Assembly: GCF_000381545.1 (NCBI RefSeq)
Contig: NZ_KB906680.1
Location: 1 to 64,000 of the forward strand
Length of the DNA: 64,000 nucleotides
DNA from: Rhodonellum psychrophilum GCM71 = DSM 17998
GTDB taxonomy: Bacteria > Bacteroidota > Bacteroidia > Cytophagales > Cyclobacteriaceae
Direction: 5' to 3'
The notes under the pieces were generated by a model. It was given only the letters and a program-made list of their open reading frames with translations. It did not search any database and was not told the origin of the DNA. Of the stretch, positions 14,133 to 22,771 are shown in pieces. The position numbers and the translations under genes were made by a program. Within the stretch, counting starts at the first letter, position 1; the number at the start of each line of letters is the position of its first letter.

Positions 14133-14585
14133 GTTAGGAAGTAAGAGGTTTGAAAACGGAATGAAAGATAGACTTTCGGTTTTCAATTGTCAAGTTTATG
14201 CGTGTTTGGGGAAAGAAGTACGAGGTAAAAGCTAAAATTGTGACATTTCAGAACCGGATTAAAGTATATCTTGCCCTGATTCCAATTGAGGTGCCTGTCA
14301 AAATTAAATGATTAAATGCGTATTTGGATATTTAGGAATTAGTTATACTTTTAGATAGGTGAAAAATAAGGGGGAGTTTTGGTGGCATGTATGGCAAATG
14401 GCATGCCTTACGCCATAATGGCGGGAATCAAACTGTTGAACAAAACCTCCTGCGTCGGTAGTTATTTCGGCAGTTAGTTATGATTTTTATCTTTATCCTT
14501 CTGATTTTTAGACAGATGGGTTATTTTTATAGCATGTTTAATCTAAATTCCTTTCAATCATGGAAAAAAAAGCCTTCGCCAAAGG
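14133..14585. other. Intergenic region with clustered palindromes left of the IS91 element
   Basis: No gene is supported. At 14384-14407 GGCATG faces CATGCC, and at 14411-14423 CGCCAT-A-ATGGCG is a perfect 6+1+6 palindrome. Further on (about 14469) GGCAGTTAG resembles the GGCGGTTAG seen at the attC-like site at 21926. These could mark the left end of the IS91-type element or a decayed cassette boundary. A frame starting MEKKAFAKGWW at 14560 is out of phase with the recombinase and short. Confidence 0.4.
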
Positions 14586-15395
14586 ATGGTGGAAGAGATG
14601 CAGATCAGAAACTATGCTGCAAGAACCATCCGGAACTACACCGAATCCATCTCACGTCTCGCACTGCATTTCAGGCAGTCTCCCGAGCTGTTGGAAACTC
14701 AGCAGATCAAGGATTTCATCCACCATTCCTACTATAACCAAAAACTGTCCGTTTCCTCAGTCAACCAACTCATCAGTGCTTTAAAAATACTTTTTTTAGG
14801 AGTGTTGGGCAGGGAATGGGATAACATAAGTATCAAAAGACCTAAAAGAGAGAAAAAGCTTCCCAATATCCTTTCAAGGGAAGAGCTGACCCGGATCCTC
14901 AGCCTTACCCAAAACCGGAAACATTACTGTATTTTCTCACTTACATATTCCGCCGGACTCAGACTCAATGAAGTCACCAACATCCGTTTCCCAGATATTG
15001 ATGCAGCAAGGATGCAACTTAAGGTAAGGTACGGAAAAGGCAGCAAAGACAGATTCACGCTTTTGTCCAACAGGGTCCTGAAAGAACTCAGGGACTATTA
15101 CAGGGAGTTTCATCCCAGAAACTATCTCTTTGAAGGAGCCAAACGTGGGGAACCGATTAGCCATCGAACTGTCCAGACAGTTTTCAAACAGGCGACCAAA
15201 CGTGCCGGCATCACCAAGGACGTGTCGTTTCACAGCCTGAGACACTCCTTTGCCACCCACCTGCTGGAGCAGGGAACCAACCTGAGGATGATTCAGCAGC
15301 TGATGGGGCACACCTCTCTCAAGACTACCACTGTATATCTTCACGTGAGCCATATTGAGCCTTCCCAGATCAAAAGTCCTCTGGACAACCTGTAA
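14586..15395 (+). CDS. Tyrosine recombinase / integrase of the IS91-type element
   Basis: The product is 269 residues, short for a XerD-like enzyme but complete. It has an N-terminal SAM-like core-binding domain (1-85) and a catalytic domain with the full set: R126 (AGLRLNE), K154 (GKGSKDR), H216 and R219 (HSLRH), H242 (GHTS) and nucleophile Y251 (TTVYLH). The first ATG after an in-frame TAA at 14544 is at 14586. The stop overlaps the transposase start by one base (TAATG), so the two are translationally coupled. It lacks the additional motif expected of integron IntI enzymes as far as can be judged, so it is more likely the IS91 partner recombinase than a cassette integrase. Confidence 0.9.
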   Translation: MVEEMQIRNYAARTIRNYTESISRLALHFRQSPELLETQQIKDFIHHSYYNQKLSVSSVNQLISALKILFLGVLGREWDNISIKRPKREKKLPNILSREELTRILSLTQNRKHYCIFSLTYSAGLRLNEVTNIRFPDIDAARMQLKVRYGKGSKDRFTLLSNRVLKELRDYYREFHPRNYLFEGAKRGEPISHRTVQTVFKQATKRAGITKDVSFHSLRHSFATHLLEQGTNLRMIQQLMGHTSLKTTTVYLHVSHIEPSQIKSPLDNL

Positions 15396-16567
15396 TGGAA
15401 GCCGTCAATGCCCGGAATTCAGGCGCAGAGCTTTCGGATATCCTTCTTTTGAACAAAAATGCCTTCTTTTCCCATAACAAGCTTTGTGTGGACCAGATCA
15501 AGGCATATGAAGCCATCATCGGATGCAGGACCTCCAAAATGGGGAGCCACACGCTGGTCTGTGACAACTGCGAACACAAAAAGACCTGCTATAACAGCTG
15601 TAGAAACCGCCACTGTCCCAAATGCCAATATGTCAAACAGGTAGTCTGGGTGGAGAAACTCAAGGCAAGACTGTTGCCCGTGAGATACTTCCATATCGTT
15701 TTCACAGTCCCGGAGTTTCTCAACAGCATATTTTACATCAACCAGCGGGAATGTTACGACATGCTTTTCTCATCTTCGGCCCAGACAATGAAAAAGGCAG
15801 CAGCAAATCCGGAATTTCTCGGTGCTGAAACGGGCTGCCTTTCCGTATTGCACACTTGGGGACAATCCCTGAATTACCATCCCCATATCCACATGCTTGT
15901 ACCTGCGGGCGGACTGGATCCAGATGGAATGGAATGGGTAAAGGCAAACCGAAAATTCTTTGTTCCGGTAAAGGCCATATCGAAAATCTTCAGAGGTGTT
16001 TTCATGGACAGGCTCAGGAAAGCGATTGCGGCAGGTTCACTCAACATCCCGCAAAAACAGTCGGCACTGTATGCAAACCCGAAGAAACTTAATTGTTTGG
16101 CATATGAAAAATACTGGCACATACATATCAAAAAAACTTTCCGGGGAGCAAACCAAGTCGTCAGCTATCTTGGCAGGTACACACATAGGGTCGCCATCAG
16201 CAACAGCAGGATACTGGATACAGACGGGAAAACCGTTAGCTTCAGATGGAAAGACTACCGTGACAACCGGCACAAGGTCATGGAGCTGCCCTGCGGGGAA
16301 TTCATCAGACGATTTATGCAACACATACTACCAAACGGGTTTTACAAAATCAGGTACTTCGGTATATTGGCACCAGCCAACAGCAGGACCAAAATGAATG
16401 ATTGCCATTGTCTTTTAAACCAAAAAAGACAGGTCTCTCACTATGAAGGGCTAACGACGTATGAAGTTCTCAGAAAGCTTTTGGATGAAAATATCTTCAG
16501 ATGTACCTGCTGCGGTAAAGGAACAATGGGTTTTGGAAAACCACAACCAGATAATGGAATACCCTGA
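15395..16567 (+). CDS. IS91-family Y2 transposase
   Basis: The product is 390 residues. An N-terminal zinc-binding region has repeated cysteines (CDNCEHKKTCYNSC, then CRNRHCPKC at about residues 50-75). The rolling-circle-type core contains the metal-binding NYHPHIHMLVPAGG and the paired tyrosines in YLGRYTHRVAISN, both hallmarks of IS91/ISCR HUH transposases. The C-terminal part ends with a further CTCCGKG knuckle. It nicks single strands and moves the element by rolling-circle transposition. Such elements can mobilise adjacent DNA by one-ended transposition, which is relevant to the foreign genes directly downstream. Confidence 0.93.
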   Translation: MEAVNARNSGAELSDILLLNKNAFFSHNKLCVDQIKAYEAIIGCRTSKMGSHTLVCDNCEHKKTCYNSCRNRHCPKCQYVKQVVWVEKLKARLLPVRYFHIVFTVPEFLNSIFYINQRECYDMLFSSSAQTMKKAAANPEFLGAETGCLSVLHTWGQSLNYHPHIHMLVPAGGLDPDGMEWVKANRKFFVPVKAISKIFRGVFMDRLRKAIAAGSLNIPQKQSALYANPKKLNCLAYEKYWHIHIKKTFRGANQVVSYLGRYTHRVAISNSRILDTDGKTVSFRWKDYRDNRHKVMELPCGEFIRRFMQHILPNGFYKIRYFGILAPANSRTKMNDCHCLLNQKRQVSHYEGLTTYEVLRKLLDENIFRCTCCGKGTMGFGKPQPDNGIP

Positions 16568-16776
16568 AAAGGATAAGGTTGAAAGTTCTTTGACATCTTG
16601 AAGCAAACAACCAAGGCAGGGCGCTGCGAGGAAAAGGTATGCCCAAAAACAATCAACAAGTGTCCAAAAGCATGTCAAACACAACAAAAAAGAACGTCCC
16701 CAAGGAATTTTCCGTCATCTTCGTCCAAAACCAAGGCAAATAAATGCCCATAATCCCGGAGGCTCCGTCCAACTAT

Positions 16777-16858
16777 GTTTTAACCGCAATTTTGGATTAT
16801 CGAATAAAATAGTTATTTTTTTGCCTGAATTGCGTTTAAAACACTTTACGTTACAAGC
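16777..16858. repeat. attC-like imperfect palindrome upstream of the giant ATPase gene
   Basis: A 19-nt arm at 16777-16795 (GTTTTAACCGCAATTTTGG) pairs with 16824-16842 with 16 of 19 matches across a 28-nt spacer, followed by CTTTACGTTACAAGC (the ACGTTA part at 16848). Size, imperfect stem and a trailing ACGTT resemble an integron-type recombination site. It does not fit the strict GTTRRRY consensus, so 'attC-like' is tentative. Confidence 0.4.
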
Positions 16859-16899
16859 AAGTGTAAAGACTGCCCCGTCCTAAAATAGGTTGACTAAAA

Positions 16900-19800
16900 A
16901 TGGAAAAAGAATATATTCAAACAATTGCCAATCAGGATATTTTAGATTTAATTGCTAAAAGAAGGGATATTTATATCAAAGACCCATTGCTTATTGTGGA
17001 ACATTTCAACAATGAAAATAAAATCATTGATGAATACAACGGTCGTCAATTGCTGGAAATGATTCAAAATGCAAATGACGAAAGCGATACTTTTAAACCT
17101 AAAAAAGTTAAAATAATATTAGAGAATAACACATTGTTAATTGCTAACAATGGAAACCCATTTTCAATTGGTGGCGTAGAATCACTAATCTATAGTGATT
17201 TGAGCCCTAAAGTAATGGAAGAAAACAAGGTAGGTCAAAAAGGGCTTGGTTTCCGTTCAGTACTTAACTGGTCCGAAGAAATTTATATTGCCAGTTATGA
17301 CCTGCATTTAAAATTTTCAAAACAACACGCTAGAGAATTTCTGGATGGGTTAATAGCAGAAAACTCAGAAATTCAAACAGTTTTAAAGCGTAAAACAAAA
17401 AAGTCTTTTTCAATTTCTCTTTTGCGTTGCCCTTATTTAGAAGAAGATACCAGTCATAAAAAAGAAACCGATTATGATACAGTAATAGAATTAAGCTTAA
17501 AAGAAGGTATCAATCAAGACATAAAAGACCAAATTGAGAAAGATATTATTCCAGAAATATTAATCTTTTTAAACAAGCTTGAAGAAATTGAAGTACAAAC
17601 TGATGAACATCATTTTCTATTAAAAAAAGAAACTACTGATAATGGTATACTGATTACCAAAACAGACTTTTTAGACGATCAAAATAATGACAGTTGTTTG
17701 TGGTTTACTTCTGAAGAAAAAGGAAAACTTACAAACAATGAAGTCACCAAAAATTATGAATTAAAAATCGCATACAATCCTAATAGTAAACCATCAATTC
17801 AAAAACTCTTTTCTTATTTCAGAACCGATGTAGATTTTCCTTATCCAGTATTGGCTCACGGTTCCTTTGAATTAACTGGAAATAGAAATCAGCTAATTGA
17901 AGACGAAAACGGATTTAATAAAATGTTGTTAGACAAATTAGCAATGTTGTTAGTGGATTGTTCTATTAAGCTTACCAAAGAAAATAGATGTAATTATGAA
18001 GCATTAAAACTTATTATTCCATCGATTACAAATAATAGCAGCTTAAACAACGCACCTTGGAATTTTAATAAAGCTATAGATGTTTCTATTGCAGATACAT
18101 CTATTTTTCCTTCTATTAACAACAAATATCTAAAGCTTTCAGAAAACATAAAGTTTTATGAAGTGCCTATACATAATAGCATTCCTAAAAAAGCGTACTC
18201 GCTATTTAATACGCTTTTGCAAGCAACTTTCGATAAAGAGATTATCTACTATTTATCAACGTTAAAGATTAATTTAAAATATCCAGACAACGAGTTTACC
18301 AGTAAAATCAATCAAATTGTTGACAGTAATTATTTAACAGAAAGACAACGTGTTGATTGGATTTATTTGGTTTGCGAAAAAACGAAAGATATTTACAATA
18401 GTAAAAATCCAGCGTTGCCATTTCTACTTATAAATTCGGAAAATAAAAAAATCAAAAGCTTTGATACTGTAATTGTACCACCAAAAGAAGTAACCTATAA
18501 ACTTCCTAAAGGCATTAAATTACAATTTTTAAATCAAGATTTGTACAGAAGAATTAGAACTCGATTTGGTAATATTCCTCCACGTCAAGTAATTGAAAAA
18601 CTAAATCTATACAATGTAGCAGAATATGCGATGAATGTTGTGGTTCAAAAAATTATTTCAAGCACAAATGAAATTGTTAGAGCAGGTAAAAAAGACAAGG
18701 TCAATGCAATTCAAGAAATGCACAAAGCTTTATTTAGTATTTATAACTCATTAGATGACAACACAGATGCTAAAAACACTTTTCCAGTAACATTAACTTC
18801 TCCATATCTATTCACAAGAAATAATGAATTAAAAGAAGCAAACAAATTATATTTTGGTAAAGAATATGCTTTAGGGTATTTAATGGAAGATTTGCTAAAA
18901 GAGGTTAATAAAGATGTTTTTGTGGGTTCTTTAGAACAAAATGGTTTATTTGAAGAACAGAAAGAATCAGAAATTTTAATGTCAAATCATTCTATTGAAA
19001 AATATTTGAAATGGCTTGGTATTGCTGATTTTCCAAAGAAAGAAATAAAAGAAATAAAATCACAATCTTTCAGCAATGATGATTATTTAAAGTTTATTAT
19101 ACAATCAATAAGATATCCTTTCACAACGCAAGGGTATAATGAAAAAATAGAAAACATTGCAGAAATGAAAAACTGTTGGGATTTTAAATGCAATGTTTTA
19201 TGGTATGAGCATTTTAATGAAATAGTTAGCGGGGCAACTTTTGAAAGTTTATTAACTTGGTTCTTAAAAGATATTGAGCTGATTAACTCATTAGTTACAA
19301 ACCAAGAATTTGGTTTAAGTGATTTTCGATTTGCATATCCTAAAAAGCAGTATTACCGTTACATACCAAAATCATATATTAAATCGTATATCTTTTTCAT
19401 CCTTCAAAAAACAGCTTTTATTCCTGTTGAAAATGGCGAAAAATCAACACCAAACAATTGTTTATTAGACAGCAATAATTTAAGTCCATTAGTCAAAACA
19501 CCTAAAATAAATTATACAGCAATACCATTTATTCACAATAATATTGATGAAGAGCAAATCAATTATTTTTTAAAAAGAATTGGATTAAAAGACAGTTTGA
19601 AAGATTTAACTATTCAATCACTTTATAAATTATTAAACCAACACAATACACATTTTTCAGAAGCAACTAGCAATATTCAAAGTTTTTATATGGCTATTAT
19701 AGAAGCTACCAAAAACAGAGAGGTTATAGAAGACAGCATCGAAAGGAGAAAATATATCGAAACAGGTAAGATTTACGCCTATTTTGAAGGTAAGAACAGC

Positions 19801-21762
19801 TTTGCTCCCATAAGTGAAGTAACCTATGTTGATAATCCCAATTTCAGTCAGGATTTATTAAAAAAATTGAAAGTTTCCAAGTTACCACACCGTTCAGGAA
19901 ACCAAAGAATTAATAGTTTATTTGGTGTACAGCCATTAGATTATATAAAATTTAATGTTCAGAAAAATGTAGAATTAAACCATAAGCTCAATGAAGCTTT
20001 TGTTGGAGAATTAAATGAAATGAAACCTCATTTATTTGCATACCGTTTTCAAAAAGGATTGAAAAAAACACAATTGGAATTTGAATTATCTGCAATAAAA
20101 AACATCAAGATTATTATGGCATATAGTCTTGAAGTAAGGTACCGTTTAAATGATGTTGACAATGATTTATCCCTAAACAAATATGAATATATACAAGATG
20201 AAGTTTCAAAAATCTTCTATGTTAAATTAGACAGTGATAATGCAAATTATCAAGAATTAAAAAAGGATTATAGATTTAAGGAAACAATTGCTGACATCAT
20301 CTGTGGTGCATTAAAAGTAACAGAAAATAGAAAAGATTTTATTTTATTATTAGGTGAAAGTCCTGCCAACTGGATTCATCTTTTAAAAAGAGAGTTTGAA
20401 GATTATGAAACTATTGAAAAAGAAATCATAGGAAAGTTTGAAGGAGTTTTATCATCTGAACAAAGATTTTGGAAGCTGTTGTTGGATTTAAAAAAAATAA
20501 AAATTAAATCTGAAACAGATTTAAATATTGATTTTATTCACGATAAGTTATTTATAAAATTGCATAAAGATGTTTTTTTTGAAATATTTAGAAAGTTGGA
20601 TTACAACAATCTTTCTGACCGTAAAAACTTCTTACATATCCAAAAAATATTCCAATATATAAAAATTGATTTAGCTGACTTTAATTCATTTGGCTATAAG
20701 ATTTTAAATTTTGAAAGTTATTTACAGAATCAACTATACACATATCACAAGGTTTTTTCAGAAAAATACGCTACCTTCTTATACAACAAAAAGCAATCAA
20801 ATGGTTTTATAGAAAAATGGGAACAGGTATCTAAATTCAATTCCTTTAAAGTAAGTAATTCAATCAATTTTGATGTCAAAAAGGCTCATAAATTAGCAAT
20901 TTCACAAAGTTTTAAAGGTATAAATTATAATGCTATTGAGGATATATTAAAAGTTGATTTAGAGGCAATATATAGTAAAAACATCAAGACATTAGAATCT
21001 GACTTGAGATTACTACCAAATTTTAATGATACTATTTTCAATGATAATAAATATGAACTTTCATTCAGGAATGCTTTATATTTTAATGAGGTAGAGAACA
21101 TAAAAACAGATTTAATTCAAAAATTCAATAATCTAACCGAAGACCATACCGAACTGAAAATTAATATTGCGAATACCTCAGTTTCTTTTTCTAACAATAA
21201 TGTAAACGATTTATTTGATTTCATTGAAGAGCAAGTAAAAAATAATGATTTAACAATGGATTATTATGACCCAACAAAAGTCCTAGAATCCGTTAAATCT
21301 GGTAATGGAAATAGTTCAGGCGGTCAATCTTTTAATGGAAAATCAAAAAAATACAAAAATGAGAATATTGGTTTTATAGGAGAAAAATATGCTTTTGAGT
21401 TGTTAAAGAAAGAATTTGAAAGCGTTGAATGGGTCTCAGAATATGCAATAAAGGCAGGATTTCCTAATGGTAGAGACGGCTTGGGTTATGACTTTGAATG
21501 TAAAAAAGGAGTTGAAACACGTTTTGTTGAAGTAAAAAGTTCTGTCACCAATAACTACTCATTTAACATAAGTATGAATGAGGTTAAAGTTGGACATTCA
21601 ATAGAAAAATCATTTGATATACTTTTAATAACTAATCTTTTATCTGATGATATTAATTTCAAATATTTAAGAAATATATTTGATTATACAAACAATGAGA
21701 GTTTTTTGGAAAATTCAAAATTTCATGTAGAAAATGACAGTTATAAAATTAAGTTTAAATGA
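16900..21762 (+). CDS. Giant sacsin-like GHKL ATPase with C-terminal DUF3883 nuclease-like domain; putative defence protein
   Basis: The product is 1620 residues. The N-terminal GHKL/Hsp90-type ATP-binding domain shows E53-xxx-N57-A-N-D60 (LLEMIQNANDES), IANNGNPFS at 81-89 and GQKGLGFRSV at 112-121, the sacsin-like order. About 1300 central residues show no recognisable motif. The C-terminus (about 1460-1560) has GEKYAFELLKKEF, DGLGYDFECKKG and RFVEVKSS, the E/D/ExK pattern of DUF3883, a restriction-endonuclease-like domain. Proteins joining these two domains occur in prokaryotic defence islands; a direct function here is inference. The gene is strongly AT-rich compared with its neighbours, follows an IS91 element and is flanked by two attC-like palindromes, all signs of acquisition. 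It is expected to be cytoplasmic. Confidence 0.8.
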   Translation: MEKEYIQTIANQDILDLIAKRRDIYIKDPLLIVEHFNNENKIIDEYNGRQLLEMIQNANDESDTFKPKKVKIILENNTLLIANNGNPFSIGGVESLIYSDLSPKVMEENKVGQKGLGFRSVLNWSEEIYIASYDLHLKFSKQHAREFLDGLIAENSEIQTVLKRKTKKSFSISLLRCPYLEEDTSHKKETDYDTVIELSLKEGINQDIKDQIEKDIIPEILIFLNKLEEIEVQTDEHHFLLKKETTDNGILITKTDFLDDQNNDSCLWFTSEEKGKLTNNEVTKNYELKIAYNPNSKPSIQKLFSYFRTDVDFPYPVLAHGSFELTGNRNQLIEDENGFNKMLLDKLAMLLVDCSIKLTKENRCNYEALKLIIPSITNNSSLNNAPWNFNKAIDVSIADTSIFPSINNKYLKLSENIKFYEVPIHNSIPKKAYSLFNTLLQATFDKEIIYYLSTLKINLKYPDNEFTSKINQIVDSNYLTERQRVDWIYLVCEKTKDIYNSKNPALPFLLINSENKKIKSFDTVIVPPKEVTYKLPKGIKLQFLNQDLYRRIRTRFGNIPPRQVIEKLNLYNVAEYAMNVVVQKIISSTNEIVRAGKKDKVNAIQEMHKALFSIYNSLDDNTDAKNTFPVTLTSPYLFTRNNELKEANKLYFGKEYALGYLMEDLLKEVNKDVFVGSLEQNGLFEEQKESEILMSNHSIEKYLKWLGIADFPKKEIKEIKSQSFSNDDYLKFIIQSIRYPFTTQGYNEKIENIAEMKNCWDFKCNVLWYEHFNEIVSGATFESLLTWFLKDIELINSLVTNQEFGLSDFRFAYPKKQYYRYIPKSYIKSYIFFILQKTAFIPVENGEKSTPNNCLLDSNNLSPLVKTPKINYTAIPFIHNNIDEEQINYFLKRIGLKDSLKDLTIQSLYKLLNQHNTHFSEATSNIQSFYMAIIEATKNREVIEDSIERRKYIETGKIYAYFEGKNSFAPISEVTYVDNPNFSQDLLKKLKVSKLPHRSGNQRINSLFGVQPLDYIKFNVQKNVELNHKLNEAFVGELNEMKPHLFAYRFQKGLKKTQLEFELSAIKNIKIIMAYSLEVRYRLNDVDNDLSLNKYEYIQDEVSKIFYVKLDSDNANYQELKKDYRFKETIADIICGALKVTENRKDFILLLGESPANWIHLLKREFEDYETIEKEIIGKFEGVLSSEQRFWKLLLDLKKIKIKSETDLNIDFIHDKLFIKLHKDVFFEIFRKLDYNNLSDRKNFLHIQKIFQYIKIDLADFNSFGYKILNFESYLQNQLYTYHKVFSEKYATFLYNKKQSNGFIEKWEQVSKFNSFKVSNSINFDVKKAHKLAISQSFKGINYNAIEDILKVDLEAIYSKNIKTLESDLRLLPNFNDTIFNDNKYELSFRNALYFNEVENIKTDLIQKFNNLTEDHTELKINIANTSVSFSNNNVNDLFDFIEEQVKNNDLTMDYYDPTKVLESVKSGNGNSSGGQSFNGKSKKYKNENIGFIGEKYAFELLKKEFESVEWVSEYAIKAGFPNGRDGLGYDFECKKGVETRFVEVKSSVTNNYSFNISMNEVKVGHSIEKSFDILLITNLLSDDINFKYLRNIFDYTNNESFLENSKFHVENDSYKIKFK

Positions 21763-21800
21763 TTTCAGTTTTGCCAATAAATCAAAAAACACCAGCTTGT

Positions 21801-21936
21801 AACAGGCGTTTGGCTCAATGGCGGCTTAAGTGGTTAATTGAACATTCTACCTTGCATCAACTTTTGTGGTGTATTGACAGTTTTGTGCTCCGTAATCCGC
21901 CACTGCGCCAAGCGCCAAAACGTTGGCGGTTAGATT
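21801..21936. repeat. attC-like imperfect palindrome downstream of the giant ATPase gene
   Basis: The arm at 21804-21824 (AGGCGTTTGGCTCAATGGCG and one more G) pairs with 21897-21917 at 17 of 21 positions, with a 72-nt central spacer. It ends in AAAACGTTGGCGGTTAGATT, where GTTAGAT (21929-21935) fits GTTRRRY and the left side has TTGTAAC (5 of 7 to the inverse core). The total of about 136 bp is within the usual attC range. There are 12 extra bases on the right arm, so folding needs checking. Confidence 0.5.
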
Positions 21937-21974
21937 AAAAAGATGAGAAAACAACTTAATACTACAACAATCAA

Positions 21975-22391
21975 ATGAATACTTTTTGGGTCATACTGAT
22001 AATTCTTATAAGTTTAATTATTTTAGGTGTTCTATTCTTCCTATTTATGGTTTGGGGAATTTCTCAAGGTTTAAGAAATAAATACGGACCTGAATGGATT
22101 TCTGGTGAATTAAATATCAGATTCAATCATTTTAATATTAATTCTGAAAACAAAAAAACAATAAGGTACTTATTATCAGAAAATGAGACCTATGAAATAA
22201 CAACTCAAATAGAAGATTCGATGAATAGTCACATAGAGAATAATTACTTAACAAATTCAGATAAATTTAGCGTTCTAAAATATATTTGGATAAAAAGCAA
22301 CAACGAAACATATGAGTATCGACAAATAGAAAATGACAAATTAAAAGCAATGTTGTTATTGAATTCCAGAGAGCTGATATATTTTAAGTAA
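21975..22391 (+). CDS. Small membrane-anchored protein, unknown
   Basis: The product is 138 residues with one strong N-terminal membrane segment (about 4-30, FWVILIILISLIILGVLFFLFMVWG) and a charged cytosolic or periplasmic tail rich in N, E and K. No family recognised. It is AT-rich like the upstream ATPase gene. An 11-codon open frame starting at the ATG at 21943 ends in a TGA that overlaps this start (ATGA), which could couple translation. It is the first gene after the attC-like site, as a cassette gene would be. Confidence 0.55.
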   Translation: MNTFWVILIILISLIILGVLFFLFMVWGISQGLRNKYGPEWISGELNIRFNHFNINSENKKTIRYLLSENETYEITTQIEDSMNSHIENNYLTNSDKFSVLKYIWIKSNNETYEYRQIENDKLKAMLLLNSRELIYFK

Positions 22392-22405
22392 AACTACTCT
22401 TATAA

Positions 22406-22771
22406 ATGAACAATAAAATATTTAAAATAATAGCGAAACTTCTTTCATTTATAGCGGACAAGACAAAGCTAACATATAATGAAATCAATATTATAGTATA
22501 TTATTTATTAATTCCTTTTTCATGGCTGTGTCTATTAGACATTATATTTAATTTCCATCACTTGAAAATCGCTTTTGTGATTTTCACAATAGGATTCTTT
22601 GTGGGTTGCAGGGATTTTAAAACGTACTCGGACTGGTTGTTTGCCAAATCAGTTTCATTTTTGAATTATTTCAATAGGTATGGCAGTAATTATTTTGCCT
22701 CTTCCGTGTGGATTTGTGTATCGCTGCCCATCCTGGTTTATGGGCTTCTCCTCTTCTTGATTTTGAAATAA
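22406..22771 (+). CDS. Small multi-pass membrane protein, unknown
   Basis: The product is 121 residues with about three membrane segments (about 28-45, 50-65 and 95-119). It contains KLTYNEINIIVYYLLIPFSW and the cysteine-containing FFVGCRDFKTYSDWLF. I recognise no named family. It starts 15 bp after the preceding gene, so the two are likely co-transcribed. It closes the AT-rich island; host-type sequence with a dispersed repeat begins directly after its stop. Confidence 0.55.
   Translation: MNNKIFKIIAKLLSFIADKTKLTYNEINIIVYYLLIPFSWLCLLDIIFNFHHLKIAFVIFTIGFFVGCRDFKTYSDWLFAKSVSFLNYFNRYGSNYFASSVWICVSLPILVYGLLLFLILK

Follow-up and report, generated by a model that had tools for sequence, protein, structure and literature searches.

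Results

A self-closing cassette with a Tiamat-type gene

The window, as we call the whole stretch of 64,000 nucleotides of Rhodonellum psychrophilum DNA that was analysed, contains a real and precisely bounded unit at 16850-21921 (+ strand). This unit, the TmtA cassette, measures 5,072 nt and runs from the GTT at 16850 to the base preceding the next GTT core, at 21922. Its limits are set by closure: the start box, GTTACAAGC (16850-16858, +), is complementary to the R'' box at its far end, GCTTGTAAC (21795-21803), which makes the unit self-closing. The cassette holds one gene, the TmtA (Tiamat-type) gene, an ORF of 1620 aa at 16900-21762 (+), with a sacsin-type ATP-binding domain at aa 49-130 (NF047352, E 3e-20) and a NOV_C/DUF3883 domain at aa 1494-1588 (E 7e-10). 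GC content per kb is 0.25-0.30 across 17-22 kb, against mostly 0.39-0.50 beyond 17-23 kb. An original prediction, made from the letters of the window, had described an AT-rich gene of 1620 residues here, and the ORF, the low GC content and both domains bear it out; the two palindromes that it placed around the gene are likewise present at their predicted positions.

Compared with the PADLOC profile TmtA (PDLC03964), the protein scores 1345 bits, aa 6-1620 being aligned to profile positions 5-1535 of 1538, a full-length match. PADLOC TmtA is presumably Tiamat; the full-length match is what the window gene has in common with it, while here the gene forms a single-gene cassette. Tiamat is listed as an anti-phage system in the available text of PMC12629846, in which the name TmtA is absent. 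Judged by its sequence, the cargo would act in phage defence. Among 148 genomes of the family one other TmtA homologue was found (27% identity), and no cassette site lies near it, which counts against the cassette reading.

At the right junction the core is GTTGGCGGTTAG (21922-21933, +). The original prediction erred in taking GTTAGAT as the core of the right site; the core is GTTGGCGG, that is, the GTT inside ACGTT at 21922. A further cassette beyond this junction was sought by closure and none that closed was found. Immediately behind the cassette, at 21975-22771 of the window, come two short ORFs (138 and 121 aa) of AT-rich sequence; neither matched a family of Pfam, NCBIfam or PADLOC at the limits applied, and no closing site was seen there. 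At the left junction in the window, the GTT has neither an attI-like nor an attC-like flank, which counts against the cassette-capture reading. The expectation that a cassette of about 4.9 kb would be unusually large did not hold, as many of the listed cassettes exceed 3 kb, some of the longest perhaps hiding missed sites.

An IS91-like element upstream of the cassette

Directly upstream lies an IS91-like element (14435-16849, +), which extends from the left end GTT|GAACAAAACC to the base preceding the next GTT core, as delimited by comparing the ends of 17 elements. It encodes a tyrosine recombinase of 269 aa (14586-15395, +; Pfam Phage_integrase) and an IS91-family Y2 (HUH) transposase of 390 aa (15395-16567, +; Y2_Tnp and Zn_Tnp_IS91; NF033538 438 bits, cut-off 125), and it finishes in an attC-like right end (16767-16849, +) made up of the box GTCCAAC, a hairpin at 16777-16842 and ACTTTAC before GTT. 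The DNA fold z-score of this left palindrome is -3.5 on either strand, and the right end of the element recurs as an 87% copy across 135 nt on contig C5 of the same genome.

Two candidate roles were rejected. A reading of the left palindrome as another cassette attC was ruled out because the comparison of 17 elements identifies it as the end of the IS91-like element; the attC that the original prediction had bounding the cassette on this side thus belongs to an element with a tyrosine recombinase of its own. The recombinase of the insertion sequence (IS) as the array integrase was likewise ruled out, since the platforms (described below) bear another recombinase and IS elements occur within arrays.

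The insertion points of the 17 elements are attI, attC, a further copy in tandem or some other GTT; 11 of the elements have a next site beyond their right end, and in 10 of these the cassette that follows closes. A scan of 148 genomes placed the left end of the element at 43 positions in 13 genomes; among the 30 places inspected, 7 adjoin a model-detected site and about 10 an attI-like sequence (both by eye), 1 is a tandem and the rest lie elsewhere. A further IS91-like group, seen in genomes G040 and G095, occupies the R'' box in reverse orientation in 5/5 cases. Exact shared ends with GTT on both sides fit site-specific recombination at least as well as rolling-circle (ori/ter) transposition. 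Given these ends, insertion sites and closures, we regard the window element as a mobile dock that occupies a secondary GTT and is followed by the TmtA cassette. That IS91 ends alone might form the boundaries had been named as the finding that would speak against a cassette: an IS91-type end does form the left boundary, whereas the right boundary and the closure are features of a cassette. The proposal of a mobile defence cassette in a non-classical integron-like array therefore survives in part, upheld by closure and by the full-length TmtA match but not by the left site, which is the end of the IS91-like element.

The Y2 HUH transposase is shared with the IS91 family and ISCR; unlike these, the window element has a tyrosine recombinase and an attC-like end, sits at GTT cores of attI and attC, and docks cassettes. 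Mobile elements at integron sites are familiar, in that IS1111-type and group IIC elements insert in attC. The IS91-like element differs from them in being placed exactly at GTT, in the fashion of a cassette, with closed cassettes after it. A literature search on IS91 with tyrosine recombinases and on insertion sequences at attC (bioRxiv outside its scope) gave no such case among the matches listed.

The right site belongs to a family of folded sites

The attC-like site at the right end of the cassette (21795-21921, +) consists of the R'' box, L'' (21805-21814), L' (21907-21916) and the spacer AAAAC. Taken singly, its palindrome folds modestly (DNA fold z-scores -1.4 on the + and -3.0 on the - strand); it is more than chance because relatives exist, as found with a covariance model built from sites of the same genome. 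A script retrieved eight own-genome sites in which AAC and GTT are exactly 121 nt apart, together with two weak matches in the window at other spacings; the relatives sit between genes on contigs C5 and C22, and the right site has their arms and their 121-nt spacing. RNAalifold on ten sites gave 19 pairs, with two-sided compensatory change in 13/19, on an alignment that was not fitted to structure. The covariance model R1 was made from ten own-genome sites, including the right site of the window, aligned with MAFFT; in the same genome it yields 20 matches at E<=1, one being a minus-strand twin. The right site scores 131.7 bits with R1, of which it is a member by construction, and 124.3 bits with the model R2, built on 148 sites. 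Rfam returned nothing relevant in the window at the gathering cut-off, or in 16600-22100 at E<=10.

Isolated matches, some of them weak, also occur on contigs C21, C11, C14, C7 and C18, away from the arrays on C5, C8 and C22, and may be single cassettes or remnants. Within the C5 array, a minus-strand ORF of 417 aa (L005 15105-16358) lies beside a site at about 17405 with a disrupted left arm and resembles, by eye, a group II intron reverse transcriptase; an annotated enzyme of this kind is found in a Chryseobacterium plasmid array (L272 21714-23030). Behind the platform on contig C22 (L007 6665-16672), the cassettes comprise a gene with a weak likeness to Pycsar cyclases (E 1e-7) as well as one cassette of 6.8 kb that holds several genes.

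R1 matches were obtained in 112/148 genomes of the family. At E<=1e-5, R2 finds sites in 188/395 Bacteroidota genomes against 4/148 genomes of a control phylum, apparently that of Desulfobulbus propionicus (<=59.7 bits), and in this control group an IntI above the curated cut-off is present in 44/118 genomes. The sites occur in chromosomes and plasmids, stand at the 3' end of cassettes and mostly measure 118-124 nt from AAC to GTT, and their arms pair despite sequence variation. With 90% of cells paired, an alignment of 144 distinct sites reaches a covariation of 0.715, against 0.172 when shuffled and <=0.103 with slid partners; for sites beside named integrases the value is 0.670 against 0.170 shuffled (the alignments behind 0.715 and 0.670 were fitted to the model). 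The site is thus, as in integrons, a folded one with imperfect inverted arms whose structure is conserved over its sequence. At one inner arm pair (columns 19 and 220), T stands opposite G in 46/144 sites, giving an A-C mismatch on the other strand, which could mark one strand.

Cassettes close on themselves and are shared between genera

Cassettes are GTT-bounded units of one or a few genes each. Across the arrays of 12 genomes, after removal of neighbour pairs without AAC/GTT at the called positions and of duplicates from overlapping loci, the R'' box in front of AAC is complementary to the start of its own cassette at a mean of 5.53 of 6 positions beyond AAC/GTT (n=119), perfectly so in 99/119. 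Over 2000 rounds of shuffling, the partners give 2.40 (sd 0.11, maximum 2.76); the box immediately downstream gives 2.41. Tandem copies in genome G113, where one long array (L068-L072) has recurring blocks of the same two cassettes, mean that the cassettes counted there are not all independent. Three of the 20/119 cassettes below 6/6 have an IS91-like insertion at the R'' box. Pairing of a box with its own start is expected of cassettes that exist as circles joined at GTT; GTT-bounded units closing as circles, a defining property of integrons, are therefore found here.

Near-identical cassettes, compared after removing matches below 85% identity or covering less than 80% of the cassette, are shared between genera in the pairs G121/G113 (91%, edges -5/+4 relative to GTT), G077/G095 (93.5%, edges -1/+4) and G023/G113 (92.6%, edges -11/+3), and within one genus between Cecembia rubra (G053) and G113 (99.4%, edges -3/+3). 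The edges of the remaining pairs lie further out or in, or the pairs are block duplications inside G113.

Integrase platforms and attI

Arrays mostly start 70-108 nt behind a co-directional tyrosine recombinase, at an attI of the form TATAAACAA|GTT. These platform recombinases are of about 368 aa and share 55-70% identity with the own-genome copy; in 8/8 platforms the first cassette closes 74-143 nt past the stop codon. We examined the best 80 of at least 571 named integrase loci, and among these, sites were present in 27/32 having at least 2 kb downstream; the 5/32 of these loci at which no site was found count against the cassette-capture reading. All 85 sites at integrase loci (88 matches minus 3 minus-strand twins of palindromic sites) are downstream and co-directional, with 0 in about 424 kb upstream. 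First cassettes close with at least 6 nt at 33/38 loci; in 32 of these they lie no more than 300 nt behind the stop. The attI consensus (n=33) was drawn solely from loci with a closing first cassette; positions -8 (A), -7 (T) and -1 (A) do not vary, and position -6 is A in 32/33. An attI adjoining the integrase gene, another hallmark of integrons, is thus present. Two Chryseobacterium plasmids carry the integrase with the identical TATAAACAA|GTT, one followed by seven site matches (the weakest at E 0.029) and the other by a single match about 13 kb downstream.

Several observations accompany the platforms. The 90 nt upstream of attI fold better than all 60 mononucleotide shuffles at 18/33 loci, often as a hairpin, which may be a terminator of the integrase gene or a part of attI. 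As if assembly broke at repeated sites, 26/80 integrase contigs (L138-L217) stop at most 350 nt behind the integrase. Downstream of the integrase on a Chryseobacterium oryzae plasmid (L273 19325-26424) is a type III restriction-modification set, flanked by two copies of the pair of IS91 and tyrosine recombinase. Plasmids of Klebsiella, Acinetobacter and Aeromonas have related recombinases (H7-H15; 41-51% identity over 64-79% of the query).

Recombinase matches at E<=1e-60 occur in 102/148 genomes of the family, a figure that includes IS-type recombinases and so is not a count of platforms. The N-terminal domain of the platform enzyme was modelled with a pLDDT of 92, and its first Foldseek match was the HARP domain of SMARCAL1, a weak one (E 0.045, probability 0.84, rmsd 8.0); N-terminal pieces matched Pfam HARP in 3/5 cases, below the Pfam cut-off, and DUF5710 in 4/5. 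The resemblance to HARP suggested by the model is therefore weak.

The platform recombinase and IntI

With TIGR02249 (cut-off 265) three platform enzymes score 219, 217.5 and 207.3 bits and the window recombinase 199.6; with NF040815 (cut-off 220) the same comparison gives 227-232 bits for three platform enzymes and 213 for the window recombinase. No IntI above cut-off was found in the genome. The span from GKG.K.R to HxxRH is 107 residues in IntI (19/19), 65-66 in platform enzymes (41/41) and 66-67 in IS recombinases (9/9), as measured in 19/20 IntI and 41/43 platform rows, in which 3 platform pairs are identical; the IntI-specific insertion I2 is absent from the platform enzymes. In a midpoint-rooted tree of 48 rows, IntI (100/100), IS recombinases (96/94) and platform enzymes (89/59) form separate groups, IntI and IS recombinases cluster together (96/87), and two other recombinases of the genome fall outside. 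This tree drew on 18/43 platform rows, each trimmed of its first 88 residues, and IntI_L223 was left out; the two outgroup rows are own-genome tyrosine recombinases assumed to be Xer. By sequence, then, the platform recombinase is not an IntI, and as the defining features of IntI were looked for and not found, we call the system integron-like in its working and place it outside the IntI class. Two points go against the original prediction: sites and integrase are not of the IntI type, and the genome does possess a separate integrase platform (contig C22).

Xer/XerA (NF040815) is the closest NCBIfam model, and the closest solved structures by sequence are of this kind (XerA 5hxy). Unlike Xer/XerA, the platform enzymes are linked to cassette arrays and attI and have an extra N-terminal domain.

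Discussion

Integrons are usually recognised through IntI with its additional domain. The system described here resembles them in having a folded site at the 3' end, a GTT core, circular closure, an attI beside the integrase and arrays of unrelated genes. It departs from IntI integrons in its recombinase, which lacks the insertion, forms its own group, points towards the array and has a HARP-like N-terminal domain, in the near-constant spacing of its sites (mostly 118-124 nt) and in its attI. A co-directional integrase is reported for Treponema integrons (PMC3607928, in the available text). There these integrons are described as bearing intI, whereas the Bacteroidota class is without the IntI insertion. 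IntegronFinder 2.0, as far as the available part of PMC9024848 goes, gave a single complete integron, that of Salinibacter ruber, for Bacteroidetes proper. In a literature search on Bacteroidota and non-IntI integrons and on integrase origins (bioRxiv outside its scope), such a system is undescribed among the matches listed. A gene-capture system spread through the phylum Bacteroidota has apparently gone undescribed.

Comparison of sequences makes it probable that 16850-21921 is a gene cassette of this integron-like capture system, widespread in Bacteroidota. Recombination would proceed through folded single strands, and the cassettes would be mobile at present. The platform recombinase would recognise the cassette site as a folded single strand and join it to the double-stranded attI at GTT, with circular cassettes being inserted or excised; its HARP-like N-terminal domain may replace I2 in recognising forked or folded DNA. 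For the window cassette, the att end of the IS91-like element would have served as the dock; the recombinase of this element is probably also active at GTT cores, and single strands could be supplied by the HUH transposase or by conjugation. The TmtA cargo, presumably an ATPase with a DUF3883 effector, may sense or stop phage infection. For the system as a whole, we lean towards a second, Bacteroidota-wide class of integron that captures folded single-stranded cassettes without I2, perhaps via the HARP-like domain, and that is accompanied by self-propelled IS91-like cassettes, each with its own recombinase, a HUH transposase able to supply single strands and an att end on which cassettes may dock.

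Food for debate is whether single strands are needed at all. The same cassettes and arrays could be served by Xer-like double-stranded recombination, the hairpins being features of binding or resolution and not the fold of the substrate. Enzymes without the IntI insertion would suit this mode, given that the available text of PMC7790495 ties that insertion to single-strand recombination, but two observations make it rather unlikely. Over about 100 nt the arms stay paired while their sequence changes, a constraint that recognition of a duplex would not impose; and the partner of a start box is the R'' box at the far end of the same cassette, not the R'' box of the site in which the start box lies.

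A canonical IntI integron, or an ordinary attC array without integrase (CALIN), would follow an identical cassette logic, and IntI integrons are reported in the Bacteroidetes/Chlorobi group and Bacteroidota (PMC9024848, PMC2426708, PMC8618304 and PMC9668308, each in its available part). This is nonetheless a very improbable identity for the system, since the genome yields no IntI above the cut-off, the platform enzymes reach 207-219 bits where 265 are required, their span is 65-66 residues against 107 and they form separate clades. Moreover, the site model finds little (4/148) where IntI is common (44/118). It is scarcely credible that the IS91-like element alone carries the gene, moving it by one-ended (ISCR-like) transposition with the palindromes as transposon ends: an IS91-type transposase pair does lie immediately upstream and the left palindrome is its end, but the right site is of a kind found in arrays without such an adjoining element and the cassette closes on itself. 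Finally, ordinary terminators, REP-like repeats or chance palindromes, for which the position of sites at gene 3' ends and the modest single fold of the right site might speak, can practically be dismissed in view of the constant spacing, the closure pattern and the shared cassette boundaries.

The reading that we prefer, capture of folded cassettes by a recombinase without I2, bears on how integrons arose. I2 is described as necessary for cassette capture and as conferring single-strand recombination, and intermediates are lacking, according to the available text of PMC7790495. Natural cassette-linked integrases without I2 make this requirement testable. With sites in 188/395 sampled genomes of the phylum, such a class would alter current counts of gene-capture systems in bacteria; defence-type genes are among the cargo of its cassettes. 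If this reading is true, IntI would represent a single branch within a wider radiation, and the capture of cassettes would be older than I2 or independent of it.
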